From Mesorhizobium shangrilense (lineage in GTDB: Bacteria; Pseudomonadota; Alphaproteobacteria; Rhizobiales; Rhizobiaceae), in the NCBI RefSeq assembly GCF_040537815.1, contig NZ_JBEWSZ010000011.1, positions 1 through 64,000 of the forward strand: a DNA stretch of 64,000 bases, in the 5' to 3' direction. Under the pieces are notes generated by a model. It ran no database searches. It had not been told where the DNA came from and saw only the letters and a program-made list of their open reading frames with translations. Both the position numbers and the translations under genes were made by a program. Below are positions 1,189 through 17,213 of the stretch, in pieces. Within the stretch, counting starts at the first letter, position 1. Each line of letters begins with the position of its first letter.

Positions 1189-1191
1189 GCG

Positions 1192-1207
1192 CGTTTTATA
1201 CAAAACG
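1192..1207. promoter_or_regulatory. Inverted repeat in the araC/phyH intergenic region
   Basis: CGTTTT-ATAC-AAAACG, a perfect 6-base inverted repeat with a 4-base spacer, lies just upstream of the AraC start. It is the best operator candidate in this divergent promoter region. Regulator assignment is inference; AraC proteins more often use direct repeats. Confidence 0.35.
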
Positions 1208-1362
1208 AGTGCCCTGCTGTCCATTTTGTTCGCTGCCGGGCGCCGCTATGGTCGCTTTCAACAGACCGGGGCGTTCGGCGGGCAAATGGCCGGAAACCCC
1301 ATTTTTCGGGCTTTCGCGGCGCCTTGCTGGCGACAGCCCCGTTCGCGGAGGGAGGCAAGACG

Positions 1363-2127
1363 ATGCTCGCGATGACCAGGAATGAAGCCGAGATCTACGC
1401 CCGAGACGGATACATCATCCGCCGGGGTCTGCTCAGCGTGCCGGAGGTGGAGGACTTCCGTGACCACGCCCGCAAGCAGCTCGAGGAAGAAAACAAGAGC
1501 GGCGCCGTGATGGCCAAGGGTGACAAGGAGGGCAAGACCACCCTTCTCAAGATGTGGACCAAGGCCGAGGACGACAAATACGGACTGCTGGCCCGCGACG
1601 AGCGCATGGTCGACCTGGCGGAAGACGCCGTCGGCAAGCCGATCTACCTCTACAGCCACAAGATGACGATGAAGCAGCCCAACGAGGGCGGCGCCTGGGA
1701 ATGGCACCAGGATTTCGGCTACTGGTACAATTACGGCTGCCTGGCGCCGGAGATGATGAGCATCTATGTCGCGCTCGACAAGGCGACCCGCGAGAATGGC
1801 TGCCTGCAGGTGCTGAAGGGCACGCACAAGCTCGGCCGCCTCAACCACATCCGCGAGAACGACCAGACCAATGTCGAGCAGGAGCATCTGGAAGCCGCGC
1901 TGAAGCGCTACGAGCACATCTATGTCGAGATGGAAGCCGGCGACGCGCTGATCTTCGACGGCAACCTTCTGCACCGCTCCGACGCCAACCGCTCCGACAC
2001 GTATCGCTGGGGCTACATCTGCTCCTACAACGCCGTCGAGAACGCGCCGTTCAAGAAGGTTCGCGAATACGGAAATTTCGACGAGCTGCGCAAGGTGCCG
2101 GCCGGCACGTTCCGCAAGGCGTCCTGA
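1363..2127 (+). CDS. Phytanoyl-CoA dioxygenase (PhyH) family protein
   Basis: 254 residues. Fe(II)/2-oxoglutarate-dependent oxygenase fold: the metal motif is H115-Q-D117 (in WEWHQDFGYW) with the distal H204 (NLLHRSD) and R215 as the likely 2-oxoglutarate anchor. The family hydroxylates small carboxylates, ectoine, alkyl chains and others, so the substrate cannot be read from sequence. GGAGGGAGG lies just upstream of the ATG at 1363; a second ATG at 1372 is possible. First gene of a rightward run with a ribose-type transporter, separated from it by 237 bases, so it may have its own transcript. A role in oxidising the imported compound is inferred. Confidence 0.85.
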   Translation: MLAMTRNEAEIYARDGYIIRRGLLSVPEVEDFRDHARKQLEEENKSGAVMAKGDKEGKTTLLKMWTKAEDDKYGLLARDERMVDLAEDAVGKPIYLYSHKMTMKQPNEGGAWEWHQDFGYWYNYGCLAPEMMSIYVALDKATRENGCLQVLKGTHKLGRLNHIRENDQTNVEQEHLEAALKRYEHIYVEMEAGDALIFDGNLLHRSDANRSDTYRWGYICSYNAVENAPFKKVREYGNFDELRKVPAGTFRKAS

Positions 2128-2321
2128 CGCCAGAGAATACTGCATGGGCGGCGACGCCCGCGCTCCGGCCATGACTGTGGAAAGCCGCATCCGGCTTCTC
2201 GAAAGATCATGGCCGAACAGGGAGATAGGGCCCGATCCTGAATCACTTCGGGATTTGAGGGGCTCACATGCATCGGCCGGGCCGAGAGCTCAGCTCCGGT
2301 CGATGAAACGAAGGAGTGGCG

Positions 2322-2351
2322 ATGCCGGTGAGGACCGGTGGGCCACGCTGA
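2322..2351 (+). CDS. Possible 9-residue leader peptide upstream of the ABC permease
   Basis: AAGGAG at 2311-2316 is followed by ATG at 2322 and nine codons (MPVRTGGPR) ending in TGA at 2349-2351. The stop overlaps the AGGGAGG ribosome site of the permease gene at 2351-2357. The good Shine-Dalgarno and this overlap suggest a translated leader that could couple to the permease, but such a short frame can occur by chance. No attenuator-like codon run is seen. Confidence 0.25.
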   Translation: MPVRTGGPR

Positions 2352-2364
2352 GGGAGGATACTGT

Positions 2365-3387
2365 ATGGCCCATGCGGTCAGGACCGGCGCGCGCGCGCCA
2401 GCCACGGACCGATTCACGCTGGCGCGGCTGTTGCGGGCGCGCGAGGCAGGTGTGTTCATCGCCCTGCTCGTGCTTTGCCTGTTCCTGTCCTTCGCCACCG
2501 ATGGATTCCTGACATCGCTGAACCTGCTCAATGTCGGACGCCAGATCTCCCTGCTCGGGATCATGGCGGTCGGCATGACGTTCGTTTTGATCGCCGGCGA
2601 GGTCGACCTGTCGGTCGGCTCGACCTACGCGTTTTCGGGCCTCGCCACCGGCATGCTGATCATCGCCGGATGGGCGCTGCTGCCGGCGATCTGCGCCGGC
2701 CTGCTCACCGGCGTCGCCATCGGCCTCATCAACGGCGTGCTCTCCACCTATGGCCGCCTGCCCTCGCTGATCGCCACGCTCGGCATGCTTTCCATCGTGC
2801 GCGGCGCTGCCCTCATCCTCACCAACGGCCAGCCGGTGACGGTCAATTTGCGCAACGGCGCGCTGCCAGAAGTGCTGCAGACCTTCTCCTTCATGGGCCA
2901 GGGCTATCTGTTCAGCGTCATTCCCATGCAGCTGGTGTTCTTCATCATCATCGCGGTGCTGGCCTGGGTGGTGCTGTCGTTCTCCAATTTCGGCTTCCGC
3001 GTCTATGCCGTCGGCGGCAGCGCCAAGGCGGCGCGCGTTTCCGGCATTTCCGTCAACAAGGTCAAGATTTCAGCCTTCATCCTGATGGGCGTTCTTGCCG
3101 CCTTCGCCGGCATTCTCAGCATGGCTTTCCTGCCCAGCGGCCAGGCCGGACGCACCGGCGTCGGGCTGGAGCTCGACGTCATCGCCGCCACCATCGTCGG
3201 CGGCGCCTCGCTGTCGGGCGGCGAAGGCACAATCCTCGGCACCATCCTCGGCGTGCTGATCATCGGCGTCATGCGCAACGGCCTGGTGCTGATGGGCGTC
3301 TCGCCCTTCGTCCAGGAGCTGATGATCGGCCTCGTCATCATCATCGCGGTCGGCATCGACAAATGGAGCACGCGCCGCACGGCTTGA
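2365..3387 (+). CDS. Ribose/xylose-type ABC transporter permease (RbsC-like)
   Basis: 340 residues of strongly hydrophobic sequence with about 8-10 predicted membrane segments. Contains the BPD_transp_2 hallmarks of sugar permeases: GMTFVLIAGEVDLSVGS near residue 70 and the cytoplasmic coupling region GGASLSGGEGTILGT near residue 280. Start chosen at ATG 2365 because AGGGAGG sits 7 bases upstream; an ATG 27 bases earlier lacks such a site. Forms the inner-membrane channel with the binding protein and ATPase that follow. The compound is probably a pentose, polyol or related sugar, given the kinase and pyranase downstream. Confidence 0.92.
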   Translation: MAHAVRTGARAPATDRFTLARLLRAREAGVFIALLVLCLFLSFATDGFLTSLNLLNVGRQISLLGIMAVGMTFVLIAGEVDLSVGSTYAFSGLATGMLIIAGWALLPAICAGLLTGVAIGLINGVLSTYGRLPSLIATLGMLSIVRGAALILTNGQPVTVNLRNGALPEVLQTFSFMGQGYLFSVIPMQLVFFIIIAVLAWVVLSFSNFGFRVYAVGGSAKAARVSGISVNKVKISAFILMGVLAAFAGILSMAFLPSGQAGRTGVGLELDVIAATIVGGASLSGGEGTILGTILGVLIIGVMRNGLVLMGVSPFVQELMIGLVIIIAVGIDKWSTRRTA

Positions 3388-3431
3388 TTTCAAAACACCC
3401 AAGCAACCAGAACCAAAAGGGAGGACTATCC

Positions 3432-4403
3432 ATGAACATCAGACACGTCATTCTGGCCGCGGCAATCGGCCTGTTGCCGCTCTCGGCCCACGCCGAATCC
3501 AAGCTCGCCGACTTCGCGCTGGCGCCGCGCATCAAGGCCAAGATCGACGCCGGGCAGCCGCTCGACATCTACGTCTCCTACCATGACGTCTCCAACGAAT
3601 TCGCGCCTTTCATGAAGGCCGGCGTCGAGCGCGCCGCCAAGGACGACAAGGTCGGCGCCCAATTCATCGGCCCGGTCGGCGCCGATGCCGATGGCCAGAT
3701 CTCGGAGATCGAGACGCTGATGGGCAAGATGGACGGGCTGGCGATCTCCTCGGTCTCGACCGACGCGCTGGCGCCGGTGATCGACCGCGTCATCGCCGCC
3801 GGCATCCCGGTCGTCACCTTCAACACCGACAACCCCGAGAGCAAGCGCCTCGCCTTCGCCGGCCAGGATCTCGTCCAGTCCGGCCGCGAGGCCGGCAAGC
3901 TGATGTCCAAGGTGCTGGGCGGCAAGGGCAAGGTGATGATCACCACCATCGACGCCGCCGCGCAGTGGTCGCTCGACCGCGAAAAGGGCGCGCGCGAGGC
4001 GCTGAAGGCCGAACCCGGCATCGAAGTGGTCTCGACGCTCAACACCGGCACCGACCCGCAGAAAATCTATTCGGCGATCGAGAACGCCATGCTGGCCAAT
4101 CCGTCGATCACGGGCGTGCTCTCGCTCGAATGCTGCTCGACGCCCGCCGCCGGCACCTGGGTGGAGCGTAACAAGGCCGCCGACAAGGTCAAGGTGGTCG
4201 GCTTCGACCTGCTCGACCAGACCGTGCAGCTGGTGCAGGACGGCAATGTCGACGCCACGATCGACCAGGCGCCTGAAAAGCAGGGCTTTGCCGCCGTCGA
4301 TCTGCTCGTCAAGTTCCTCAAGGGTGAGACGATCAACAATGTCGACACCGGCGTCGGCGTCTACACCAAGGAAAACATCGCCGAGGTCGCCAAGAAGAAG
4401 TAA
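3432..4403 (+). CDS. Sugar ABC transporter substrate-binding protein (RbsB-like)
   Basis: 323 residues. Signal peptide of about 21 residues ending at AHA, then a type I periplasmic-binding fold of the ribose/LacI group (DIYVSYHDVSNEFA; VTFNTDNPES; VVGFDLLDQTVQLVQDG). A strong GGGAGGA site lies upstream of ATG 3432. Delivers the sugar to the permease encoded upstream. Unlike classical RbsB the ligand pocket cannot be assigned by eye. The order permease, binding protein, ATPase differs from the common binding protein-ATPase-permease order but the three genes are contiguous and clearly one transporter. Confidence 0.92.
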   Translation: MNIRHVILAAAIGLLPLSAHAESKLADFALAPRIKAKIDAGQPLDIYVSYHDVSNEFAPFMKAGVERAAKDDKVGAQFIGPVGADADGQISEIETLMGKMDGLAISSVSTDALAPVIDRVIAAGIPVVTFNTDNPESKRLAFAGQDLVQSGREAGKLMSKVLGGKGKVMITTIDAAAQWSLDREKGAREALKAEPGIEVVSTLNTGTDPQKIYSAIENAMLANPSITGVLSLECCSTPAAGTWVERNKAADKVKVVGFDLLDQTVQLVQDGNVDATIDQAPEKQGFAAVDLLVKFLKGETINNVDTGVGVYTKENIAEVAKKK

Positions 4404-4468
4404 CAGCCAGCTCAGCACGGCCGCCGGTTCCCATGGACCGGCGGCCGCGTGCACAAGACAGCGAGCCA

Positions 4469-5986
<1,518 letters not shown>

Positions 5987-5997
5987 ACGAGGCATTG

Positions 5998-6960
5998 ATG
6001 AGCAATCCCAAGACCGCACCAAGAATTACAATCGTCGGCAGCTTCGCTGTCGGCCTGACCATGCGGGCGCCGAAACTCCCGATCTTCGGCGAGACCATGC
6101 TCGGCACCGATTTCGACATGGGCGCCGGCGGCAAGGGCTCGAACCAGGCGGTGGCGACCTCCCGTCTTGGTGCCAGTTCCTCACTGGTCGCCATCATCGG
6201 CACCGACAAGCTGGCCGGCATCGCCACCGACCTCTATGCCGCCGAGGGCGTCGATGCGAGCCTTGTCACCACGAGGACGGAGCGCGCCACCGGCGTCGGC
6301 TTCATCATCCTCAACGACAAGGGCGAGAACTTCATCATCCTCGACATGGGCGCCAACGAGCTGATGGACGCAGCAGTCGTCGACACCGCCGAACAGCGCA
6401 TCGCCGAGAGCGACGTGGTGATGACCGTGCTCGAAGTGCCGATCCCCGCTGCCGTCCGTGCCATGGAGCTTGGCCGCAAGCACGGCGCCCGCACCATCCT
6501 CAACCCCGCGCCGGCGCGCCAGCTTCCCGACGCGATCTTCGCCAATGTCGACTATCTCACGCCAAACGAGAGCGAACTGCGCATCCTGCTCGGCCTGCCC
6601 GCCGACGACCCCCGCTCCTCGCGCGAACTGGCAGGCGAACTGCGCCGGCGGGGCGTGCGCAACGTGGTGGTGACGCTCGGCCGCAGCGGCGCGCTGATCC
6701 TGACGGATGATCTCGACATCATGGTGCCCGCTGTGCCGGTAGAGGTGATCGACACGACCGGTGCGGGCGACGCGTTCAACTCCGGCTTCGCGGTGGCGCT
6801 GGCCGAAGGTCGCGATATCGTCAACGCGGTGCGCTTCGGCGTCGTCTGCGGCGGCATCGCCTGCACAAGGCTCGGCGTCATTCCCGGCCTGCCCGAACGC
6901 GCGCAGGCCGACGCGCTGTTCGCCGAAGCTATCAAGACAACGTGGAAGGAACCATCATGA
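5998..6960 (+). CDS. PfkB-family carbohydrate kinase (ribokinase-like)
   Basis: 320 residues. Both PfkB signatures are present: the N-terminal glycine motif GAGGKGSNQAVA near residue 42 and the C-terminal catalytic motif DTTGAGDAFNSGF near residue 252, which holds the anion hole and catalytic Asp. Expected to phosphorylate the imported sugar or a derivative with ATP. Starts 12 bases after the ATPase stop and overlaps the next gene by ATGA (6957-6960), so it is translationally coupled. Closest to ribokinase; the true substrate is unknown. Confidence 0.9.
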   Translation: MSNPKTAPRITIVGSFAVGLTMRAPKLPIFGETMLGTDFDMGAGGKGSNQAVATSRLGASSSLVAIIGTDKLAGIATDLYAAEGVDASLVTTRTERATGVGFIILNDKGENFIILDMGANELMDAAVVDTAEQRIAESDVVMTVLEVPIPAAVRAMELGRKHGARTILNPAPARQLPDAIFANVDYLTPNESELRILLGLPADDPRSSRELAGELRRRGVRNVVVTLGRSGALILTDDLDIMVPAVPVEVIDTTGAGDAFNSGFAVALAEGRDIVNAVRFGVVCGGIACTRLGVIPGLPERAQADALFAEAIKTTWKEPS

Positions 6961-7418
6961 ACCGTAACCGGCTGCTCAATGCTGAACTGTCGCACGCCAT
7001 CGCCTCGATGGGCCATGGCGATTTGATGATCGTCTGCGACGCGGGCTTTCCGATCCCGTCGAGCGCCTGGCGCATCGACCTCGCCATCTCGCCGGACGTG
7101 CCGGACTTGGAAGCCGTGCTCGGCCCGATCGCCGCGAACCTGATCGCCGAGCGGGTCGGCTATGCCGACACGCTGCCGGTGCACAATGCGCCGCTGCTGG
7201 AGAAACTGAAGCGGCTGTTCCCCGACGCCGATTTCGAGACCACGACGCACGAGACCATCCTCGGCGAGATGGCGGCCAAGGCCAAGGTCATCGTGCGCAC
7301 CGGCGCCTTCGACCCGTGGGGCAACATCCTGCTTTATTCCGGCGTCGACGTGCCGGCTTGGTTCTCCAAGCCCGGCGTCGTCGCGCCCGACTATTACGCC
7401 AAGAAGCTGAAAGGCTGA
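6957..7418 (+). CDS. D-ribose pyranase / L-fucose mutarotase family protein (RbsD-like)
   Basis: 153 residues, slightly longer than typical RbsD (about 130-139). The N terminus carries the catalytic pattern of RbsD: His20 in MGHGD and Asp28 in IVCDAGFPIP. These proteins interconvert pyranose and furanose (or anomeric) forms of sugars, often supplying the form used by a ribokinase. ATGA overlap with the kinase gene and GGAAGGA upstream support start 6957. Together with the kinase and RbsABC-type transporter it points to ribose or a close analogue. Confidence 0.88.
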   Translation: MNRNRLLNAELSHAIASMGHGDLMIVCDAGFPIPSSAWRIDLAISPDVPDLEAVLGPIAANLIAERVGYADTLPVHNAPLLEKLKRLFPDADFETTTHETILGEMAAKAKVIVRTGAFDPWGNILLYSGVDVPAWFSKPGVVAPDYYAKKLKG

Positions 7419-7419
7419 C

Positions 7420-8259
7420 ATGCCGCGCATCTTCGATTTCGGCGGCCGCGAGGTCGACCGCTCCGTCACCGTCGCCAGCCTGCGCGCACTGAAGGGCAGT
7501 GGCCGGCACGTCGCCCAGGTGACGGCCGAGACGGCGGACGAAGCGGCGGCAGCCGAAGCCGCCGGCGTCGAGATGGTGGTCTGCCGCGCCGCCAATGTGG
7601 CTGGGGTGCGCCAGGGATCGCGCCGCGTCTTCGTCACCGCCGCCCTCGGCTTCGCCGACGCGGTGATATCGGACGAGATCCTGCGCACCGCCTTCTCGGC
7701 CATCACCGCAGGCGCCGACGCGGTCATCACCGGGCGCGGCCATGATACTGTGCGCATGCTCGCCAACGAACAGATCCCGGTGATGGGCCATCTCGGCTTC
7801 GTGCCGCGCAAATCCACCTGGGTCGGCGCCATCCGCGCCGTCGGCAAGACGGCCACTGAGGCGCTGGAACTGTGGGATCGCTTCCGCCGGCTCGAAGATG
7901 CCGGCGCCTTCGCCGTCGAATGCGAGATCATTCCGGCCGACGTGATGGCCGAGATCAACCGCCGTACCGGGCTGGTCACCGTATCGCTCGGCTCCGGTCC
8001 CGCGGCCGATGTGGTGTTCCTGTTCACCTCCGACATAACAGGCGAAAGCGCCCGCCTGCCCCGCCATGCCCGCGCGTGGGGTGATCTGGCTGCACTCCAC
8101 AAGGCAGTCCGTGACGCCCGCGTCGAAGCGCTCTCCGGCTTCCGCCAGGAGGTCGCGGGCGGCAGGTATCCGGCCAATGCCGAAGTCGTCGGGATTGCGC
8201 AGGCCGAACTCGAGGCGTTTCGTGCGCGGCTTGAGGCCGGCGAAATTAGCAAAGCATAA
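7420..8259 (+). CDS. PanB-like (ketopantoate hydroxymethyltransferase fold) protein with altered active site
   Basis: 279 residues. Similarity to PanB shows in VMGHLGFVP (residues 121-129, compare CGHLGLTP) and in FAVECEIIP, where E169 matches the catalytic Glu of PanB. The residues that bind Mg and ketopantoate in PanB are missing by my alignment: the two Asp correspond to R56 and A75, and the Lys/Glu pair to I103 and G105. It is therefore unlikely to make ketopantoate. Last gene of the sugar operon, 1 base after the pyranase stop, so probably co-translated. It may act as an aldolase/lyase-like enzyme on the sugar product, or be regulatory; function is unknown. Confidence 0.7.
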   Translation: MPRIFDFGGREVDRSVTVASLRALKGSGRHVAQVTAETADEAAAAEAAGVEMVVCRAANVAGVRQGSRRVFVTAALGFADAVISDEILRTAFSAITAGADAVITGRGHDTVRMLANEQIPVMGHLGFVPRKSTWVGAIRAVGKTATEALELWDRFRRLEDAGAFAVECEIIPADVMAEINRRTGLVTVSLGSGPAADVVFLFTSDITGESARLPRHARAWGDLAALHKAVRDARVEALSGFRQEVAGGRYPANAEVVGIAQAELEAFRARLEAGEISKA

Positions 8260-8289
8260 ACAAACAGATGGAGCCGGACCTTGAATCAG

Positions 8290-8892
8290 TCAGGATCGGT
8301 TCTCGATGATCTGGCGCAGGCTGCGATAGGTACGTTCCAGCCGCTCGAAACCGCCTTCGGCGAGCGTGATCGGCGCGGCATTGTCGGCGATGGCCGCGAA
8401 CAGCAGCGCCGCGTCGGCGGGCACGACATTATCAGCAAGCTCGCCGCGCCGGCCGGCTGAGGACAGCGCCTCGGCAAACAGCGCCGAGAGCTCGACGCCG
8501 AAATGGCTGAGCATCTGCCGGCCACGGTCCCCCAGAAGATCGGCATCCTGCCGCAGCCTGGAGATCAGGCTCCAATTGTGCCCTTCCGTGCCGGACGGAT
8601 TGAAGTGGCGGAAACGCGCGCGGCTGTAGGCGATCATCGCCTCGACCTGGTCGGAGAGGCTTGCCCCCTCGGCCGACCAGACAGCGCGCAAGCCGCCCAG
8701 CGTTGCCTGCATGTAGTCGCCCAGCACCTCGTCGACCAGCGCCTGCTTGTTGCCGAAATGGTAGTGGATGTTGGCCCGCGTCGTGCCCAGCGCCACGGAG
8801 ATGTCGCCGAAACTGATGCCGCGATAGCCATGGCGCACCAGAAGCTCCAGCGCCGTGTCCTTGATCGCCTGTCTCATGTCGGTCTCGTCCAT
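8290..8892 (-). CDS. TetR/AcrR-family transcriptional regulator
   Basis: 200 residues. N-terminal TetR helix-turn-helix (residues about 5-50, GYRGISFGDISVALGTTRANIHYHF) with a divergent C-terminal ligand domain. ATG 8892 (MDETDMRQ) gives the usual TetR length; longer frames upstream lack homology. Convergent with the sugar operon and divergent from the triple RidA gene, so it most likely controls the latter and perhaps itself. Confidence 0.9.
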   Translation of the reverse strand: MDETDMRQAIKDTALELLVRHGYRGISFGDISVALGTTRANIHYHFGNKQALVDEVLGDYMQATLGGLRAVWSAEGASLSDQVEAMIAYSRARFRHFNPSGTEGHNWSLISRLRQDADLLGDRGRQMLSHFGVELSALFAEALSSAGRRGELADNVVPADAALLFAAIADNAAPITLAEGGFERLERTYRSLRQIIENRS

Positions 8893-8953
8893 GCCGGCAT
8901 CATAGCCAAATGCGTTAGCCTTGGACGCCGAAGCTTTGCGGCGTCCCCAGCAT

Positions 8954-8986
8954 TTGACGGCAAACTGACTTGCAGGTAAGTAAGTA
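8954..8986 (+). promoter_or_regulatory. Candidate promoter/operator between tetR and the triple-RidA gene
   Basis: ACTTGCAGGTAAGT at 8968-8981 is an imperfect palindrome (10 of 14 positions symmetric, with perfect ACTT/AAGT ends), followed by a repeated GTAA. TTGACG at 8954-8959 could be a -35 element, with a poor -10 (TAAGTA) 17 bases further. TetR-type repressors commonly bind such palindromes over a promoter; the assignment is inferred. Confidence 0.35.
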
Positions 8987-9010
8987 TCAAAATCAGGGAG
9001 GGGAACGCGG

Positions 9011-10219
9011 GTGGGACTGCAGATATTCAAGGATGTCGAGGGCTCGGCGCCGCAGGCCGTCCGCGCCGGCGATCTGATATTCGTCAGCGGGATGATGGCG
9101 ACGGACGCGAGCGGCAAGATGGTCGCCAGCGGCATCGCCGGCCAGGCGCGCGTCATCTTCGAGCGCCTGATGGCGCTTCTCACCCGGGTCGGCGCCGACA
9201 TGGCCGATGTGGTCAAGCACAACGTCTATTTCAGCTGCGAGGCCGATGCCGTCAGTACTTTCCTCGACGAGCTCGATTCCGTACGCGCCCGCTATTTCAA
9301 GGCCCCCGGCCCCACCACCACGGAAATCCGCTGCGGCCTCGACCGGGAGGGCGCGCTGCTGATGGTCGACGCCTGGGTGGTGATCGGCGGCAGGCGCGAG
9401 CTGCTTGACCCGCCCGGCCACTGGCGCTGGCGCAAGAAGCTGCCCTTCGTCCATGGCTGGAAGGTTGGCGACCTGCTGTTCATTGGCGGCCAGCGCTCGC
9501 TCGATGCCGAGGGCAATGTGCAGGGGATCGGCGACATCGAGGTGCAGACCGAAGAGGCCTTCCGCAACCTCGACACGATGCTGCGGGCGGGCGGCGGCGA
9601 CCGCAACAGCCTGATGCGCCAGAACACCTATTTCCGCTTCTTCGGCGAAGGCCGCGAGGTCACCAACTATTGGGAGAAGATGACCAATGTGCGCCGCCGC
9701 TACATGGCGGTGCCCTCGGCGGCCGGTGCCGGCCTGCGCATCCAGGGCATGGGCGATGCCGACGAACTGATCCAGGTCGAGGGTATCGGCATGCTCGGCG
9801 ACGACAAGCAGCGGCTTCAGCCGGCCAACCATTGGGACTGGAGCATTCCCAACACCCAGTTCACGCAAGGCTGGAAGATCGGCAAGCTCGCCTTCATCGG
9901 CGGCCAGATCTCGGCCGACAACAAGGCGCAGGCCGTCGGCGACGACATGGAGACGCAGACCCGCAACGTCTTCGAGTTCATTCGCCGCACGCTGGCCGAG
10001 GGCGGGCTCGACGAGAGCGACGTCGCCAAGCTCTACATCTACTACCACGCCGAGGGCAGTTGGGCCGAGATCGAGGCGACCCGCGCGGTGATTGCCCGCG
10101 TCCAGCGCGAATTCTACCCCGAGCCCGGCCCGGCGGTGACCGCGATCCGCGTCGCCGGCTTTGCCTTCGAGAACCTGCTGGTCGAGATCGAGGCGATGGC
10201 TGTGGCTCGGTACGAGTGA
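9011..10219 (+). CDS. Three-domain RidA/YjgF-family fusion protein
   Basis: 402 residues made of three successive RidA (YjgF/YER057c/UK114) units: about 1-128 (DLIFVSGMMATDASG), 143-265 (DLLFIGGQRSLDAEG) and 284-402 (KLAFIGGQISADNKA). Ordinary RidA is about 130 residues and trimerises, so this chain may supply a whole trimer. The Arg that gives E. coli RidA its 2-aminoacrylate deaminase activity (Arg105) does not align with Arg in any unit, suggesting a Rid4-7-like, non-canonical activity. GTG 9011 is preceded by GGGAGGGG. Ends 9 bases before the M24 gene, so probably one operon with it. Confidence 0.85.
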   Translation: MGLQIFKDVEGSAPQAVRAGDLIFVSGMMATDASGKMVASGIAGQARVIFERLMALLTRVGADMADVVKHNVYFSCEADAVSTFLDELDSVRARYFKAPGPTTTEIRCGLDREGALLMVDAWVVIGGRRELLDPPGHWRWRKKLPFVHGWKVGDLLFIGGQRSLDAEGNVQGIGDIEVQTEEAFRNLDTMLRAGGGDRNSLMRQNTYFRFFGEGREVTNYWEKMTNVRRRYMAVPSAAGAGLRIQGMGDADELIQVEGIGMLGDDKQRLQPANHWDWSIPNTQFTQGWKIGKLAFIGGQISADNKAQAVGDDMETQTRNVFEFIRRTLAEGGLDESDVAKLYIYYHAEGSWAEIEATRAVIARVQREFYPEPGPAVTAIRVAGFAFENLLVEIEAMAVARYE

Positions 10220-10228
10220 CGGGGACCG

Positions 10229-11386
10229 ATGTCGAAACACGATTTCACCGCCGCCGAATTCGCCGGGCGACTGGCGCGCGTCCGGGCCGCCATGGCCGCT
10301 GATGACCTCGACTGGCTGGTCGCCGTCCACCCCGCCTCCATCCACTGGCTGACCGGCAGCGACGCCAAGAGCTACCAGGAATTCCAGTGCCTGCTGGTCG
10401 GCGCGCGCGAGGAGCCGCTCGTCGTGCTCACCCGCCAGGGCGAGGTACATGAATTCGAGACGGACTCAGCTGCCGGCGATGTGCATGGCTTCGGTGGCGG
10501 CGAGAACGAGGACCCGATCGCCGCCTTTACCGGCGTGGCACGGCGCCACGGCGTGCTTGGCAGGCGCGTCGGCCTCGAAGTGCCCGCCTACTATCTCCAC
10601 CCGCATCATTATCTCGGTCTGCGCGCGATCATCGGCGATGCCCTGGTCACCGAGGCGACCGAACTGATCGCCGGGTTGAAGCTGGTGAAGTCGCCGGCGG
10701 AGATCGGCTACATCCGGCGCGCGGCGGCCCTTGCCGACCTCGGCATGCAGCGTTTCGCCGGCGAGCTGGCGGCGGGCGCATCGGAACTGGCGCTGGCCGG
10801 GGGCATCCACGAGACCTTGATGCGCAACGGCAGCGGCATCGCTGCCAGCCCGATCAACCTCGTCTCCGGCCCGCGCTCGGCCTACAGCCATGGCGCGCCG
10901 ACCGCGCGGCGGCTTGAGCATGGCGATTTCGGCAACATCGAATTCGGCGCCACCTTCAACCGCTACACCGCCACCATCGGCCGTAATTTCGCGCTTGGAA
11001 AGCCAACGCCGCGCATGGTCGAGCTGCACGACATCGTGCTGCGCGCCAGCGACGCCATGATCGCTGTCATCCGCGACGGCGTGCGGGCAACCGTGCCGCA
11101 CCAGGCGGCTCGCGCCGTCATTGGCGAGGCCGGGCTCGAATCCTGCCGCGTCCACACATCGGGCTATGCGCTGGGGCCGGGCTTTCCGCCAAGCTGGGCC
11201 GAGCCGCTGCACATGATCGGCGACAGTCCACATGTGCTGAAAGCCGGCATGGTTGTCACTGTCGAGCCGCCGGTCTTCATCGGCGCCGAAGGGCTTGGCG
11301 CCCGCATCATCGACAATGTGCTGGTGACGCCGACCGGTGCCGAGGTGCTGGCGCGAACGCCGCGCGATCTCATCGTTGCGGGTTGA
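10229..11386 (+). CDS. M24-family (creatinase / ectoine hydrolase-like) hydrolase lacking metal ligands
   Basis: 385 residues. N-terminal creatinase domain (about 1-150), C-terminal pita-bread fold (155-380). The five metal ligands of aminopeptidase P/methionine aminopeptidase read here E238 (for Asp), T249 (for Asp), H309, E346 and I361 (for Glu), so a dinuclear metal site is not expected. Loss of these ligands is typical of creatinase and of ectoine hydrolase DoeA/EutD, which cleave cyclic or ureido C-N bonds. Length fits EutD (about 390). Operon with the triple RidA gene; the deacetylase and dehydratase further on support a DoeA/EutD-type role. Substrate is not proven. Confidence 0.75.
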   Translation: MSKHDFTAAEFAGRLARVRAAMAADDLDWLVAVHPASIHWLTGSDAKSYQEFQCLLVGAREEPLVVLTRQGEVHEFETDSAAGDVHGFGGGENEDPIAAFTGVARRHGVLGRRVGLEVPAYYLHPHHYLGLRAIIGDALVTEATELIAGLKLVKSPAEIGYIRRAAALADLGMQRFAGELAAGASELALAGGIHETLMRNGSGIAASPINLVSGPRSAYSHGAPTARRLEHGDFGNIEFGATFNRYTATIGRNFALGKPTPRMVELHDIVLRASDAMIAVIRDGVRATVPHQAARAVIGEAGLESCRVHTSGYALGPGFPPSWAEPLHMIGDSPHVLKAGMVVTVEPPVFIGAEGLGARIIDNVLVTPTGAEVLARTPRDLIVAG

Positions 11387-11396
11387 GCTTTGCTTG

Positions 11397-12173
11397 CTAC
11401 CCGCCCAGCTCATGCGCGATCTCGGCGCAGGCGAGTTTCAGCCGCGCCAGCATCGCCTCGAAATTGGGCGCCGCACTGCGCCGGCTGACCGCCGCCACCG
11501 TCACGCAGGCCACCGCGCGCCCGTCGCCGGCGATGATCGGGCAGACCACATCGGTCACGCCGATGATGTCGCGGCTTTCATGGATGATGGCGCCGCGCTC
11601 GCGCACTGCGTCAAGCTCGGCGGCAAGCGTCGTCGGGTCCGGCGGCTCGCGCATCAGCATCAGGCATTCGGCGATCATCTTGTCGCGCACCGGCTTGGGC
11701 TGGAACGCCATCAGCACAAGGCCGGAATGGGCGTCGGCCAGCGGCCGGCGATAGCCGAGCTTGAGCGAGAAGTTCATGTCCGCCCCGCCCGACGCCGCTG
11801 CGATGATGACCGTTTCGCCGCGATGCGCGACGACGAGGTGCGCCGCCTGGTGAACCTCCTCGGCGAAGCGCTCGACGATGGGTGCCGCCGTGCTGACCAG
11901 GTCGCGCGCGCGCGCCGTCTGCATGCCCAGCCCGAACAGCTTGTTCGACAGCATCAGCCCCTCGCCGCTCTCGTCGCGCTGGATGTAGCCGCGCGCCAAG
12001 AGCACATGGACCATGCGGAAGATCTCGTTCTTCGACCGCCCCAGCTCCTCGGCGATCTGGCGCGTGCCCATGGACTGGCCGGCATTGGCCAGCAATTCGA
12101 GGATATCCAGCCCCTTTTCCAGGGCCGGCGCGCTGTAGTTGAGCTTGTCGTCCGTCATTTGCATCCGTTTCAT
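11397..12173 (-). CDS. IclR-family transcriptional regulator
   Basis: 258 residues. N-terminal winged helix (residues about 15-75: LEKGLDILELLANAGQSMGTRQIAEELG) followed by an IclR effector-binding domain (RPLADAHSGLVLMAF; GVTDVVCPIIAGDGRAVACVTVAA). Possible starts at 12173, 12164 and 12158. Convergent with the M24 gene and divergent from the amino-acid ABC operon, so the likely regulator of the transporter-deacetylase-dehydratase run. Known ectoine clusters usually use the GntR-type EnuR, so an IclR here is different. Confidence 0.9.
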   Translation of the reverse strand: MKRMQMTDDKLNYSAPALEKGLDILELLANAGQSMGTRQIAEELGRSKNEIFRMVHVLLARGYIQRDESGEGLMLSNKLFGLGMQTARARDLVSTAAPIVERFAEEVHQAAHLVVAHRGETVIIAAASGGADMNFSLKLGYRRPLADAHSGLVLMAFQPKPVRDKMIAECLMLMREPPDPTTLAAELDAVRERGAIIHESRDIIGVTDVVCPIIAGDGRAVACVTVAAVSRRSAAPNFEAMLARLKLACAEIAHELGG

Positions 12174-12183
12174 AGATGACGCT

Positions 12184-12212
12184 TGACGTCACATATGAAG
12201 CGACGCTAGCGT
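12184..12212. promoter_or_regulatory. Two palindromes in the iclR/ABC intergenic region
   Basis: TGACGTCA (12184-12191) and ACGCTAGCGT (12203-12212) are both perfect palindromes within the 106-base divergent region. Either could be the IclR operator. No clean -35/-10 pair was found. Confidence 0.35.
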
Positions 12213-12279
12213 ATTGTCCAGCAAATCCGCGCGGAAAATAGCGATCTCCGCTTGGTTGCATAAGGGGCGCTCTGCATCC

Positions 12280-12951
12280 ATGAGCTATAATTTCAAATTT
12301 GATGTCCTGCTGCGCTACATACCGGAGATCGCGCAAGGCGTTGTCCTGACCCTGCAGTTCTCGGTCATCACCATGGTCTGCGGGCTGGCCATCGGCCTAG
12401 TCGTCGCCATGGCTTCGATCAGCCCGCTGATGCCGCTGCGCGCCTGCGCCCGTATCTATGTCGAGGCGCTGCGCAACACGCCGCTGCTGGTGCAGCTGTT
12501 CATCGTCTTCTTCGGCCTGCCCTCGATCGGCATCAGGCTTGGCGCCAACACCGCAGCCCTCATCGCGCTCTCGATCAACATGGGCGCCTATGGCGCGGAA
12601 ATCCTGCGCGCCGGCTTCGAATCCGTGCGCCAGAGCCAGGTCGAGGCCGGCCGCTCGCTCGGCCTCACCGCCGGCCAGACCTTTCGCCATGTCGTGCTGT
12701 TCCAGGCGGTCAAGACCATCTACCCCGCACTCGCCAGCCAGTTCGTGCTGGTCATGCTGGCCACCAGCGTCGTCTCCTCGATCGGCGCCACAGAGCTGTT
12801 CCACCAGGCCGCCTTCATCGATTCGCGCACCTACCGCTCCTTCGAGACCTACACGCTGATCACCATTTCCTATCTCGTGCTGACGCTGGGCTTCCGCGCC
12901 TTCTTCGCCGGAATCTACTGGCTGGTCTTTGTCCGGAGGCCGCGCCGATGA
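12280..12951 (+). CDS. Polar amino-acid ABC transporter permease (EhuC/HisM-like)
   Basis: 223 residues with about five membrane spans. Carries the HisM/EhuC family signature: EALRNTPLLVQLFIVFFGLP near residue 65 and the EAA loop EAGRSLGLTAGQTFRHVVLFQA near residue 135. Start ATG 12280 (MSYNFKFDVLL) follows AAGGGGCG. Stop overlaps the start of the second permease (ATGA at 12948-12951). One half of a heterodimeric inner-membrane channel for an amino acid or amino-acid-like compound. Confidence 0.9.
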   Translation: MSYNFKFDVLLRYIPEIAQGVVLTLQFSVITMVCGLAIGLVVAMASISPLMPLRACARIYVEALRNTPLLVQLFIVFFGLPSIGIRLGANTAALIALSINMGAYGAEILRAGFESVRQSQVEAGRSLGLTAGQTFRHVVLFQAVKTIYPALASQFVLVMLATSVVSSIGATELFHQAAFIDSRTYRSFETYTLITISYLVLTLGFRAFFAGIYWLVFVRRPRR

Positions 12952-13598
12952 TCCGCGAATTCGGTGGTTCCGACATCGTCTATTTGATCGAGGCGGCACG
13001 CTGGACGCTGCTGCTGGCGCTCACTGCCACCGTTGGCGGCGGGCTGCTGGGCATTGTCGTGGCCGTGCTGCGCGTCATCCCGTTTCGGCCGCTCAACTGG
13101 CTGGCCATCGCCTGGATCAATCTGATCCAGGGCACGCCGCTGCTCGGCCAGCTCTTCGTCTTCTTCTTCGGCCTGCCGCTGGTCGGCCTCTCGGTCGACG
13201 CCTGGACGGCGGCGGCACTGTCGCTGTCGATCTACGCGTCGGCCTTCTTCGGCGAGATCTGGCGCGGCAGCCTGCAATCGGTGTCGCAGCGGCAATGGGA
13301 GGCGGGCGCCGCGCTCGGCCTCACCTATGCGCAGCGGCTCAGCCATGTCGTGCTGCCGCAGGCGATCCGCATCTCCATCGCGCCGACCGTCGGCTTCCTG
13401 GTGCAGCTGGTGAAGAACACCTCGCTCACAGCGTTGATCGGCTTCGTCGAGCTGACCCGCGCCAGCCAGATCATCAGCGGCGCGACCTTCGCCCCGCTGC
13501 CGGTCTACCTCACCGCCGCCGTCATCTATTTCGTCATCTGCTTTTCCCTCTCCCAGCTCGCCCGCATGCTGGAAAGGAGACTTCATGTCGCTCGTTGA
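12948..13598 (+). CDS. Polar amino-acid ABC transporter permease (EhuD/HisQ-like)
   Basis: 216 residues. Second permease of the same family: INLIQGTPLLGQLFVFFFGLP near residue 58 and EAA loop EAGAALGLTYAQRLSHVVLPQA near residue 120. Overlaps the preceding gene by 4 bases and the ATPase gene by 14 bases, a compact translationally coupled set. Partner of the preceding permease. Confidence 0.9.
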   Translation: MIREFGGSDIVYLIEAARWTLLLALTATVGGGLLGIVVAVLRVIPFRPLNWLAIAWINLIQGTPLLGQLFVFFFGLPLVGLSVDAWTAAALSLSIYASAFFGEIWRGSLQSVSQRQWEAGAALGLTYAQRLSHVVLPQAIRISIAPTVGFLVQLVKNTSLTALIGFVELTRASQIISGATFAPLPVYLTAAVIYFVICFSLSQLARMLERRLHVAR

Positions 13599-14316
13599 GA
13601 TCGCCGATATCCGCAAGCGCTTCGGCGCCGTCGAGGTGCTGAAGGGCATCTCGCTCACCCTGGAAAAAGGCGAGATCGTCGCGATCATCGGCCGCTCTGG
13701 CTCGGGCAAGTCGACCATGCTTCGCTGCATCAACGGGCTGGAGAAGGTGCAGGCCGGCCGCATCGTCGTCGACGGCATCGACGTCACCGCGCCCAAGGCC
13801 GACCTCAACCTGCTGCGCCAGCGCGCCGGCATGGTGTTCCAGAGCTACAATCTGTTCCCGCATCTCAATGTCGAGCGCAATGTCATGCTGGCGCTGAAGC
13901 TCGTGCGCAAGCTCGACACGCCAGCCGCACGCGAAGTCGCCCGCGCCGTGGTGACCAAGGTCGGCCTGGCCGACAAGCTGCTCGCCTATCCCGACGAATT
14001 GTCCGGCGGACAGCAGCAGCGCGTCGCCATCGCCCGATCGCTGGCCATGCAGCCGACGCTGATGCTGTTCGACGAGATCACCTCCGCGCTCGACCCCGAA
14101 CTGGTTGGCGAGGTGCTGCGCGTCCTCGAAAGCGTCGCCAGCGAAGGCATGACCATGATGCTCGTCACCCACGAGATGAACTTTGCCAAGAACGTCGCCG
14201 ACCGCGTGATCTTCATGCACGAGGGCCGCATCCACGAGGATGGGCCAGCGCGTGAGACCTTGCTCTCGCCTCGTACGGCCGAACTCAGGAGCTTCCTGAA
14301 CGCCGTCCTTCACTAG
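13585..14316 (+). CDS. Polar amino-acid ABC transporter ATP-binding protein (GlnQ/EhuA-like)
   Basis: 243 residues. Complete ABC ATPase: Walker A GRSGSGKST (about residue 35), Q-loop FQSYNLFPH, signature LSGGQQQR, Walker B LMLFDEITSALD, switch H in LVTHEM. Walker B ends EITSALD instead of the usual EPTSALD (Pro to Ile). Drives the two permeases encoded just upstream. Membership of the polar amino-acid class is clear; the ligand is not. Confidence 0.92.
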   Translation: MSLVEIADIRKRFGAVEVLKGISLTLEKGEIVAIIGRSGSGKSTMLRCINGLEKVQAGRIVVDGIDVTAPKADLNLLRQRAGMVFQSYNLFPHLNVERNVMLALKLVRKLDTPAAREVARAVVTKVGLADKLLAYPDELSGGQQQRVAIARSLAMQPTLMLFDEITSALDPELVGEVLRVLESVASEGMTMMLVTHEMNFAKNVADRVIFMHEGRIHEDGPARETLLSPRTAELRSFLNAVLH

Positions 14317-14351
14317 GAAAAGAAAGTCCAACCAGAAAAAGGGGAAGTTCC

Positions 14352-15140
14352 ATGTTCAAGCATCTTACCAGGATCGTCACAGCCGTGCTCCTGGCCGGCG
14401 CAGTCTCGGCGATGCCGGCGCGCGCCGCCGACCTGCAGAAAATCCTCTCCTCCGGCACGGTGCGCATCGGCGTGCCCATCGACGTGCCGCCCTTCGGTTC
14501 GGTCGACGCCAAGAACGAGCCGGTCGGCCTCGATGTCGACATGGCCAGGAAGATCGCCGAGGCGCTGGGCGTCAAGCTGGAGCTGCAGCAGATCACCGGC
14601 GCCAACCGCGTGCCCTATCTCGTTACCGATCGCCTCGACATCGTCATCGCCGCCATGGGCGCGACGCCGCAACGCGCGCTGCAGATCGCCTTCACCTCGC
14701 CCTATGCAGCCCTTTCGATCGGGGTCTTCGGCCCCGACAGCATCGCGCTGAAAAGCCCCGCCGACCTCAAGGACGAGACCGTCGCCGTGGCCCGCGGCAC
14801 GACGCAGGACCTCGAGCTGACCAAGGCCGCGCCCAACGCCAAGATCGTGCGCTTCGACGATGACGCCACCGCCGCTGCCGCCTTCACCTCCGGTCAGGCG
14901 CAGTTGCTGGCCACGGCCGACGTCGTCGCCAAGGACCTGATGGACAAGGATCCCAAGGTGCAGCTGAAGCCCAAATTCATCCTGCAGTTCTCGCCCTGCT
15001 ACATCGGCATCCAGCAGGGCAGCCCCGAGCTGCTGCGTTGGCTCGATACCTACATCCATCTCGGCATGCTCGACGGCTCGCTCTCCGCACTGTCGCAAAA
15101 GTGGATCGGTACCACCCTGCCGACCCTGCCGCCGATCTGA
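14352..15140 (+). CDS. Amino-acid ABC transporter substrate-binding protein (EhuB/SBP_bac_3-like)
   Basis: 262 residues. Signal peptide of about 25 residues ending ARA, then a type II periplasmic-binding fold: TVRIGVPIDVPPFGSVD, GLDVDMARKIAEALG, and DIVIAAMGATPQRA, where the usual TITPxR of amino-acid binders reads GATPQR. RBS GGGGAAG precedes ATG 14352. Follows the ATPase by 35 bases in the same operon. The adjacent deacetylase and dehydratase suggest an N-acylated diamino acid, ectoine or a similar solute; general polar amino acids remain possible. Confidence 0.9.
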   Translation: MFKHLTRIVTAVLLAGAVSAMPARAADLQKILSSGTVRIGVPIDVPPFGSVDAKNEPVGLDVDMARKIAEALGVKLELQQITGANRVPYLVTDRLDIVIAAMGATPQRALQIAFTSPYAALSIGVFGPDSIALKSPADLKDETVAVARGTTQDLELTKAAPNAKIVRFDDDATAAAAFTSGQAQLLATADVVAKDLMDKDPKVQLKPKFILQFSPCYIGIQQGSPELLRWLDTYIHLGMLDGSLSALSQKWIGTTLPTLPPI

Positions 15141-15214
15141 CTTTCTCAGCGGCGGGGGCATTGCTCCCGCCGCCCCTCCATCGCCCGCCTTCCATCCCCG
15201 TTTCAAAGAGAAAC

Positions 15215-16231
15215 ATGGCCCGCATGTCCACCGCCCGCACCACCATCGACTTCGACCGCTCCGGCAAGCAGGTCGGCTTCGTCGACATCCCGCATTCGCC
15301 GCATGACGACGCCTGGGGCGCGACCCGCATCCCGATTGCCGTGATCAAGAATGGCGATGGGCCGACCGTCATCCTGCAGGCCGGCAACCATGGTGATGAA
15401 TATGAGGGGCCGATCACGCTCGGCGAACTCATCCGCGAACTCGACCCGGGCATGGTCAGCGGCCGCATCATCTTCCTGCCGGCGATCAACCTGCCCGCCG
15501 TGCTGGCCGGCCGCCGCACCTCGCCCGTCGACGGGCTGAACCTCAACCGCACCTTTCCGGGCGACCCCGCCGGCACCATCACCCAGCAGATCTCGGCCTA
15601 TGTCAGCGACATCGTCATGCCGCTCGGCCATGCCTATGTCGATCTGCACTCCGGCGGCTCCTCGCTCAACATCCTGCCCAGCGCCATCATCGAGCCGGCG
15701 CCCGACGCCGCCCACCGCAAGCGCAACATGGAAGCGGTACTGGCCTTCGACGCGCCGCTCACCGTCGTCATCGACAATCTCGGCGAACCGCGCACCTCGA
15801 CAGCCACATCGGTACGCGCCGGGCTGACCACGGTTGGCACCGAGATGGCCGGCGCCGGCACCGTCTCGCTCGACGCACTCGGCATCTGCCGCAAGGGCGT
15901 GCGCAATGTGCTCAGCCATCTCGGCGTGCTGCCGCCGACCGGCAAGCCGCCGGCCGCGCGCCCTGAGAACATCCTGCGCATTCCCGGCCATGACGGCTAT
16001 GTGCTGGCAACGAGTGACGGCGTGTTCGAACCGTTCCATGCGCTGGGCGCCGAGGTCCATGCTGGCGAGGACGCCGGCCGCATCCACAATCTGGCCGATC
16101 CCGGCCGTGCGCCGGAAACCGTGCGCTATTTGTCGGACGGCATCGTCTATGGCCGCCGCCAGCCCGGCCGTGTCGTTATCGGCAATTGCTGCGTCACCGT
16201 CGCCACCCGCTATGAAGGAGAACTGGCGTGA
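15215..16231 (+). CDS. Succinylglutamate desuccinylase/aspartoacylase-family deacylase (DoeB/EutE-like)
   Basis: 338 residues. M14-type zinc deacylase: H59 and E62 in GNHGDEYEG and H145 in DLHSGGSS form the zinc site; NLNRTFPGDP near residue 109 binds the substrate carboxylate. Length and the run INLPAVLAGRRTSPVDGLNLN closely resemble DoeB/EutE, which removes the acetyl group from N-alpha-acetyl-2,4-diaminobutyrate after ectoine ring opening. Follows the binding protein by 74 bases and overlaps the next gene (GTGA). A different N-acyl amino acid is possible. Confidence 0.8.
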   Translation: MARMSTARTTIDFDRSGKQVGFVDIPHSPHDDAWGATRIPIAVIKNGDGPTVILQAGNHGDEYEGPITLGELIRELDPGMVSGRIIFLPAINLPAVLAGRRTSPVDGLNLNRTFPGDPAGTITQQISAYVSDIVMPLGHAYVDLHSGGSSLNILPSAIIEPAPDAAHRKRNMEAVLAFDAPLTVVIDNLGEPRTSTATSVRAGLTTVGTEMAGAGTVSLDALGICRKGVRNVLSHLGVLPPTGKPPAARPENILRIPGHDGYVLATSDGVFEPFHALGAEVHAGEDAGRIHNLADPGRAPETVRYLSDGIVYGRRQPGRVVIGNCCVTVATRYEGELA

Positions 16232-17172
16232 TTGCGCTCGAGGACATCCGCGCCGCCGCCGCCCGCATCGAAGGCAACATCAGGCGCACACCGATGATCG
16301 ACGCCAGCAACCTGAAGACGCCGCTGGCCGGTGGCGTCGACCTGATGCTGAAGCTGGAACTGTTGCAGGTCACCGGATCGTTCAAGGCGCGCGGCGCCAC
16401 CAACAGGCTGCTGTCGCTCGACCGTGTCGAACTCGGTGGCGGCATCGTTACCGCGTCCGGTGGCAACCATGGCATCGCGACCGCACGGGCGGGCTTCATG
16501 GCCGGCGTGCCCACCACCGTCTTCCTGCCGACCAACGCGTCGCCGGCCAAGATCGAGAAGCTGCAGGCCTGGGGTGCCACCACCCGCATCGTCGGATCGG
16601 CCTGGCACGAATCCAACGAGGCGGCGCAGGCCTTCGTCAGAGAGACCGGCGCTGTCTATTTCCATCCCTTCGCCGACCCCGCCGTGGTCGCCGGACAAGG
16701 CTCGGTCGGGCTCGAAATCCTCGACCAGATGCCGGATGTGACGACAGTGCTCGTCGCCATGGGCGGCGGCGGGTTGGTCAGCGGCGTTGCAACCGCGATC
16801 AAGGCGCTGGCGCCGCATGTGCGCGTCGTCGGCATCGAGGCGACGGGTTCGCCGGTGCTGCTGCGCGCACTCGAAGCCGGCCGCAATGTGGCGCTGGACA
16901 GAGTGACGACCTCGGTGGCGACCATGGCCTGCGCCAAAACCGACGACCGCATCTTCGACATTGTCCGCGACAAGGTGGACGAGATCGTGCTGGTCGACGA
17001 CGACGAGATGCTGCGCGCCGCCAAAAGCCTTTGGTTCGAGATGGGCCTCGCCGCCGACCTCAGCGGCGCCGCCGCCATTGCAGCACTGGCCGAAGGCCGG
17101 GTGCGGGTGAAGAAGGGCGAACGCGTCTGCGCCATCGTCTGCGGCGCCGGCCCGGATGCTATTCTGGGCTGA
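16228..17172 (+). CDS. PLP-dependent threonine/serine dehydratase-family enzyme (EutB-like)
   Basis: 314 residues, fold type II PLP enzyme. Lys53 in GSFKARGA forms the Schiff base; the phosphate loop is GGGGL (in VAMGGGGLVSG), and SGGNHG binds the carboxylate. Family members remove water or ammonia from hydroxy-amino acids or racemise them. In Ehu/Eut clusters the hydroxyectoine-specific gene eutB is of this type, which fits the company here. GTG start overlaps the deacylase stop; AAGGAGAA lies upstream. No ACT regulatory domain, so it is a catabolic rather than biosynthetic form. Confidence 0.82.
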   Translation: MIALEDIRAAAARIEGNIRRTPMIDASNLKTPLAGGVDLMLKLELLQVTGSFKARGATNRLLSLDRVELGGGIVTASGGNHGIATARAGFMAGVPTTVFLPTNASPAKIEKLQAWGATTRIVGSAWHESNEAAQAFVRETGAVYFHPFADPAVVAGQGSVGLEILDQMPDVTTVLVAMGGGGLVSGVATAIKALAPHVRVVGIEATGSPVLLRALEAGRNVALDRVTTSVATMACAKTDDRIFDIVRDKVDEIVLVDDDEMLRAAKSLWFEMGLAADLSGAAAIAALAEGRVRVKKGERVCAIVCGAGPDAILG

Positions 17173-17213
17173 TGGCGGCTGGCGATGCAAGAATGGACAC
17201 GCCTCGTTCCTTC

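Follow-up and report, generated by a model that had tools for sequence, protein, structure and literature searches.

Described counterparts of the cassette

Several described systems resemble the locus analysed here, a split-orientation group of ten intact genes at positions 8290-17172 of a 64,000-nucleotide stretch of Mesorhizobium shangrilense DNA (hereafter, the window) from the start of contig C11 (109.5 kb) in an 8.35-Mb genome of 49 contigs. The closest is the ectoine and hydroxyectoine utilization system (Ehu/Eut, or Doe), with which it shares an EutD-like M24 hydrolase, an EutE-like deacylase, an ATP-binding cassette (ABC) importer of the polar amino-acid type and a dehydratase of the PALP fold. 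The creatininase-creatinase pathway has a metal-free M24 fold in common with it, and threonine/serine dehydratase-RidA pairs likewise bring a PALP dehydratase and a Rid protein together in one cluster. Clustering of the latter kind is described in the parts of Niehaus et al. (2015; PMC4433059) drawn on here, in which proteins with three Rid domains per chain, as in the window, are named 3x-RidA and regarded as presumably covalently linked trimer units, and in which a conserved arginine is given as essential for imine hydrolysis by RidA. Since 3x-RidA is already named there, the presence of a three-domain Rid protein was rejected as a novelty in itself; among open-licence PMC papers, we found no report of a comparable catabolic cluster with RidA and M24 members.

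With somewhat better than even confidence, we read the ten genes as a transferable accessory cassette for the catabolism of an amino-acid derivative other than ectoine, either N-acylated or of the cyclic-amidine/amide kind. A first-pass annotation of this DNA had described a rearranged ectoine island importing ectoine, hydroxyectoine or another N-acyl or cyclic compound, and the last of these options is the direction favoured here. Open reading frame (ORF) calling and Pfam searches agree with its gene list and split orientation, with its separate TetR-Rid arm and with an IclR regulator in the place of EnuR; EutA, EutC and EnuR/EhuR are all lacking within the ten-gene unit, the first two as had been remarked. 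The general likeness to EutD/EutE logic also stands, in the form of an M24 protein of the metal-free type, a DoeB-family deacylase, a polar amino-acid ABC importer and a PALP protein. The cassette departs from Ehu/Eut, however, in that its proteins all fall under the equivalog cut-offs, in that IclR and TetR are its regulators and in the addition of a three-domain Rid protein.

Comparison with ectoine utilization

Class membership was judged by NCBIfam equivalog cut-offs. The M24 protein scores 134.4 bits against TIGR02993 (cut-off 613) and 132.9 bits against NF038259 (cut-off 575), both EutD models, and the deacylase 287.2 bits against the EutE model (cut-off 402.7). The PALP protein reaches 224 and 240.5 bits with the EutB models TIGR02991 and NF005680 (cut-offs 413.35 and 413), and the importer behaves alike, with 259.3 bits for the ATPase against EhuA (345.4), 47.8 bits for the binding protein against EhuB (190.9), 140.5 bits for permease 2 against EhuC (196.95) and 143.4 bits for permease 1 against EhuD (205.2). 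In a 27-row deacylase tree, moreover, the genome's own EutE groups with 6twl and 3na6 (support 96/94), apart from the 19-row group that holds the window's protein (98/97); the long branches of which the program warns (3cdx, 2qj8 and the own-genome sequences L011 and L012) lie elsewhere in the tree. At the sequence level, the scores, together with the tree in the case of the deacylase, place the two enzymes outside EutD and EutE, the identities first proposed for them, an outcome that the first-pass annotation had itself named as counting against its reading.

A complete canonical EhuR-EhuABCD-EutABCDE cluster is found elsewhere in the same genome (C1:2.87 Mb), so the unit is not a rearranged eut island. 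Ten of the canonical cluster's ten proteins exceed their cut-offs, with EutD (825 bits) and EutE (644 bits) adjacent to each other and with a genuine EutC at 553 bits (cut-off 471.65). Identities between the cassette and these counterparts amount to 27.4% for the M24 protein, 40.5% for the deacylase, 25.2% for the binding protein and 35.9% for the PALP protein. The cyclodeaminase-family gene at 31554, which had been suggested as a possible source of the missing EutC function, does exist (OCD_Mu_crystall, 31578-32561, outside the unit), but its candidacy as EutC supplier was rejected at 132.2 bits against the cut-off of 471.65. The best model for this gene is an archaeal alanine dehydrogenase (187.2 bits, cut-off 409.15).

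The binding pocket gives a similar picture. At the residues that we take to line the EhuB pocket, located through motifs in the EhuB of this genome (Glu21, Phe24, Tyr60, Phe80 and Arg85), the window's binding protein presents Val, Phe, a gap, Gly and Arg. Across 34 distinct binding-protein rows, the Arg85 column is invariably Arg (34/34), the Glu21 column is Val (33) or Ala (1), Tyr60 is a gap and Phe80 is Gly (22) or Ser (12), so that Arg85, an arginine of the carboxylate type, is kept and Glu21, Tyr60 and Phe80 are not. In the alignment, Ala or Asn also stands where family-3 proteins presumably have an amino-binding Asp, a change that would suit an N-substituted ligand. On the scores, the genome's own canonical cluster and this pocket, ectoine and hydroxyectoine were rejected as substrates.

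Nor is there any sign that the cassette replaces ectoine utilization in the genus, which was sampled through 146 genomes. True EutD occurs in 131 of them, comprising seven of the nine cassette carriers (the exceptions being G042 and G065) and 124 of the 137 other genomes, a difference that is not significant (Fisher 0.23). Pairs of opposed EutD-family genes scoring 608-632 bits, near the EutD cut-off of 613, were observed in G118 (C1:6733695-6738217), G013 (C13:335751-340279), G087 (C26:21471-29911) and G135 (C1:937465-950909).

Enzymes, importer and proposed pathway

The M24 gene (10229-11386, forward strand; PF00557 and PF01321, Creatinase_N) encodes a probably metal-free hydrolase. In an alignment made without four M24 paralogues from the same genome, the prolidase metal ligands D, D, H, E and E correspond to E, T, Y, E and I, with three of the five replaced altogether (T for D, Y for H and I for E) and an E in place of the first D. 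The genome's own EutD is likewise ligand-poor at these positions (E, P, Y, M and T), and the E,T,Y,E,I pattern is near-invariant over 72 distinct relatives, with two or three changes per column. Such a loss of ligands, shared with EutD, makes a metal-free C-N hydrolase of the creatinase/EutD kind likely. Creatinase itself is a distant match (34.9 bits) and, unlike the creatininase-creatinase pathway, the window's unit has no creatininase; creatininase-family genes do accompany five of the 20 deacylase-bearing relatives described below, at scores under the creatininase cut-off.

The deacylase (15215-16231, forward; PF24827) belongs to the DoeB/AspA (AstE_AspA) family without being EutE proper, and a pair alignment inspected by eye indicates that it keeps the HGDEYEG, D-x-HSGG and TE zinc-site motifs of EutE. 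It is followed by the gene for a PALP-fold pyridoxal phosphate-dependent dehydratase or ammonia-lyase (16228-17172, forward; PF00291, 264.6 bits), whose nearest solved chain is a serine racemase. Upstream lie the importer genes, all on the forward strand: permease 1 of the polar amino-acid type (12280-12951; PF00528, BPD_transp_1), permease 2 (12948-13598; PF00528), the ATPase (13585-14316; PF00005) and a family-3 solute-binding protein (SBP_bac_3, 14352-15140; PF00497).

In the pathway that we propose, a carboxylate-bearing compound would enter through the binding protein and ABC importer and have a C-N bond hydrolysed by the metal-free M24 enzyme, either by ring opening or by amide/amidine cleavage, after which the zinc deacylase would strip the acyl group from the N-acyl amino acid so formed. 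Next, a beta-substituent would be eliminated by the PALP enzyme, and the three-domain Rid protein might handle a reactive enamine- or imine-type intermediate, this being the weakest of the steps. In contrast to threonine/serine dehydratase-RidA pairs, dehydratase and Rid protein are here embedded in a cassette for import, hydrolysis and deacylation, the Rid protein is triple and the canonical Arg position appears not to be kept.

The three-domain Rid protein (3xRid)

The gene preceding M24 (9011-10219, forward) encodes a 402-residue protein with three stretches of PF01042 (Ribonuc_L-PSP), mutually 26-28% alike. Its Rid fold is confirmed by TIGR00004 (114.7 bits, cut-off 106.25) and by Rid chains among the Foldseek matches, and its AF2 model has a mean predicted local distance difference test (pLDDT) of 91.8 and a predicted TM score of 0.92. 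When the whole modelled chain is searched, chorismatases fill the first seven rows (367-371 columns, TM 0.53-0.56), followed by single Rid chains, an order that fits a single-chain pseudo-trimer. Among 39 solved chains matched in a separate search, the longest has 165 residues and none has three Rid domains. The window's protein differs from the 3x-RidA proteins, as these appear in the parts of Niehaus et al. (2015; PMC4433059) used here, in the 26-28% likeness of its domains and in having the catalytic Arg off its aligned place and chorismatases as its best structural matches; the likeness is one of domain number.

Extent, conservation and regulation of the unit

The proteins and plasmids nearest to the window are from Mesorhizobium, and two Mesorhizobium plasmids have the identical ten-gene order. 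Against six relatives with other flanks (L015-L019 and L033), the similar DNA runs from 8302-8336 to 17159-17173, the limits of the gene group. In 11 of 12 related loci compared, the ten genes are all present and free of internal stops; the exception (L048) lacks TetR and has an IclR just 47% identical. Over all pairs in this comparison, dN/dS ranges from 0.01 to 0.45. Judged from their sequences, the ten genes are one real, apparently transferable unit under purifying selection. The window's flanks are also present in three chromosomal relatives (L127, L128 and L129), in the last with an insert of about 3.3 kb upstream of the unit. Adjoining the unit at 334-8259 are genes that, by eye from their translations, encode an AraC regulator, a PhyH-like dioxygenase, a sugar-type ABC importer and ribokinase-like and RbsD-like proteins; this neighbouring stretch is common to L127 and L128 from about window position 4000 onward and is absent from the six other contexts.

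Each arm of the unit has its own regulator on the reverse strand. The TetR-family gene (8290-8892; TetR_N, 44.8 bits; start codon uncertain) diverges from the 3xRid-M24 pair, and the gap between TetR and 3xRid carries an imperfect palindrome (8965-8984). The IclR-family gene (11397-12164; PF09339 and PF01614) diverges from the transport-deacylase-dehydratase run, and the gap between IclR and permease 1 carries an inverted repeat (12166-12202) with 16-nt arms, 81% complementary, and a 5-nt spacer. Conservation of both repeats extends over 12 aligned sequences, which span Mesorhizobium and Devosia. A pattern for the first, written from these sequences, is confined to a single location in the 8.35-Mb genome, against none for the reversed-pattern control; the window's copy fits the other strand only with three mismatches and is absent from the repeat finder's output. 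The pattern for the second is likewise confined to a single location (control, 0). As candidate operators, each unique in the genome, the two repeats are in keeping with TetR and IclR acting locally as two self-contained switches, in which IclR would act on the import-deacylase-dehydratase run and TetR on the Rid-M24 pair, each through the palindrome of the divergent promoter region beside it. Terminator-like sites number 5, compared with 4.7 in shuffles, a scan that is not decisive.

Distribution and variant clusters

Counted at E <= 1e-120, the M24 gene is present in ten of the 146 genus genomes, nine of them with 81-100% identity and one (G089) with 55%. The 3xRid gene is found in nine, the same nine whose M24 protein is at least 81% identical, which gives Fisher 1.5e-13 for their co-occurrence (with G089 counted as M24 only). 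Beyond the genus, a scan in which each species was represented by one genome, and from which the best 80 of 101 confirmed stretches were kept, yielded 79 further M24 loci with orthologues 56-92% identical to the window's, assigned to α-Proteobacteria (35), β-Proteobacteria (5), planctomycetes (36) and other groups (3) by their labels as deposited, which can be wrong for metagenome-assembled genomes. Because the gene finder called no M24 ORF in nine of 83 loci (one of which, L005, is a piece of the window), gene counts were taken from tblastn searches with eight of the ten genes, permease 1 and the ATPase being left out. All eight queries are found together in eight of the 79 loci (L017, L018, L019, L026, L033, L034, L042 and L063).

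The 3xRid gene was found in 11 of 24 planctomycete M24 genomes searched, elsewhere in the genome and not beside M24, one copy having an in-frame TAG; of 12 further planctomycete M24 genomes outside that set, three have it beside M24. The same query, positive in the 24-genome set, found no 3xRid in 294 genomes from the phylum of genome G163, and the resulting association (Fisher 3.5e-14) comes from related genomes and from two sets drawn differently. Among the 36 planctomycete loci (e.g. L046 and L055), 23 have a major facilitator superfamily transporter and 11 an MR_MLE enzyme upstream of M24, and three have 3xRid.

Deacylase genes are present in 20 of the 79 M24 loci, ten with 3xRid, five with a creatininase-family gene, five with neither and none with both. 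In three Comamonadaceae loci (L029 at 6124-15784, L067 and L068), importer, M24, a creatininase-family gene, a second binding protein and deacylase are joined, after the deacylase, by genes for a CnbZ-like deaminase (368.8 bits in L029, cut-off 220) and for a protein of the class-V aminotransferase fold; locus L037 has PALP in the place of this last pair. We infer that PALP plus 3xRid and the aminotransferase-fold plus CnbZ-like pair may be enzyme swaps for a similar last step. Other arrangements were seen as well. The PALP gene of L020 (1525-9040) and a deacylase-PALP-Gfo/Idh run in L024 (1647-8010) adjoin an Amidohydro_1 enzyme together with a second importer of the ABC type, an arrangement suggesting that the same end steps are fed by a second route. 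Loci L080 (5827-15354) and L039 (8598-17450) each have two opposed M24 copies, the second 55-57% identical to the window's, in company with an NMT1-type ABC importer and a luciferase-like monooxygenase; L080 also has a flavin reductase, a LysR regulator and an M20 deacylase whose L039 counterpart is placed by clustering alone. These two clusters look like an N-heterocycle pathway.

Alternative explanations

Several results weigh against the proposed cassette function. Many M24 orthologues occur without the deacylase (59 of 79 loci) or PALP (65 of 79), by tblastn at our own thresholds and with short contigs included, and M24 and deacylase therefore need not share a path; L021 and L022 keep TetR, 3xRid, M24 and importer, and neither deacylase nor PALP was found in the stretch examined. 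The RidA catalytic Arg is off its aligned column in all three Rid domains (26-36% pairs, the alignment being uncertain there) and a different Arg, three columns earlier, does not vary in domains 2 and 3 over 27 sequences, unlike in domain 1, leaving imine hydrolysis by 3xRid, the last step, unproven. Foldseek with the M24 model does not discriminate, ranking prolidases first, EutD third and creatinase 26th, and loop 315-324 of that model has a pLDDT below 50. The promoter scan, finally, returned no sigma-70-like site (0 promoter-like sites).

The main rival, which we consider improbable, is catabolism of an N-heterocycle of aromatic or partly aromatic character, such as a pyrimidine-like ring, in which M24 and Rid would serve a Rut-style ring breakdown and deacylase and PALP would finish the N-acyl fragment. 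More distant M24 kin do lie beside luciferase-like monooxygenases (L080, L095 and L039) and a flavin reductase (L080), four of five loci tested (L080, L039, L095 and L081) have NMT1/THI5-type binding proteins, the fifth (L092) proving to be a CoA-transferase, and PALP or a deacylase-PALP pair neighbours Amidohydro_1 enzymes in L020 and L024. The window's unit has no such genes, however, its importer is of the polar amino-acid type, and the L020 and L024 amidohydrolases score far under every named model. It is also rather unlikely that the two arms are separate systems for different compounds, one formed by TetR-3xRid-M24 and the other by IclR-importer-deacylase-PALP, which merely happen to be carried along jointly. 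In its favour are the two regulators with two different repeats, the planctomycete M24 genes without deacylase, the loci in which 3xRid and M24 are adjacent alone (L059, L070 and L072) and those in which M24, IclR, importer and deacylase occur with no 3xRid found in the stretch examined (L020 and L023); yet M24 stands beside the importer in α- and β-proteobacterial loci in several gene orders, and both arms are together in nine of nine genus carriers and in Devosia. Last, a second, divergent ectoine or hydroxyectoine system is very improbable, for although the enzyme families and the order of ideas are the same and two of nine carriers lack true EutD, every score is under cut-off, the canonical cluster is complete in this genome, seven of nine carriers also have true EutD, the EhuB pocket is not kept and EutA, EutC and EnuR/EhuR are missing.

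Implications

As read here, a cassette for a non-ectoine amino-acid derivative, the locus offers a compact, testable pathway of one importer, four enzymes, two regulators and two candidate operators, whose substrate could be found through the binding protein on its own. It also illustrates that ectoine-like clusters can be mistaken for ectoine utilization, and that the two are told apart by equivalog cut-offs and by looking at the genome again. More tentatively, and at a confidence well short of even, a new metal-free M24 family, paired in many genomes with an unusual, single-chain pseudo-trimeric 3xRid whose chemistry is other than RidA imine hydrolysis, may open environmental nitrogen compounds, cyclic or N-acyl, of a class so far unrecognized, a capacity common to soil α-Proteobacteria, β-Proteobacteria and Planctomycetes and served by interchangeable follow-on enzymes. 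Given M24 orthologues in 79 loci from several phyla, drawn from the best 80 of 101 stretches, one named substrate would annotate many genomes.

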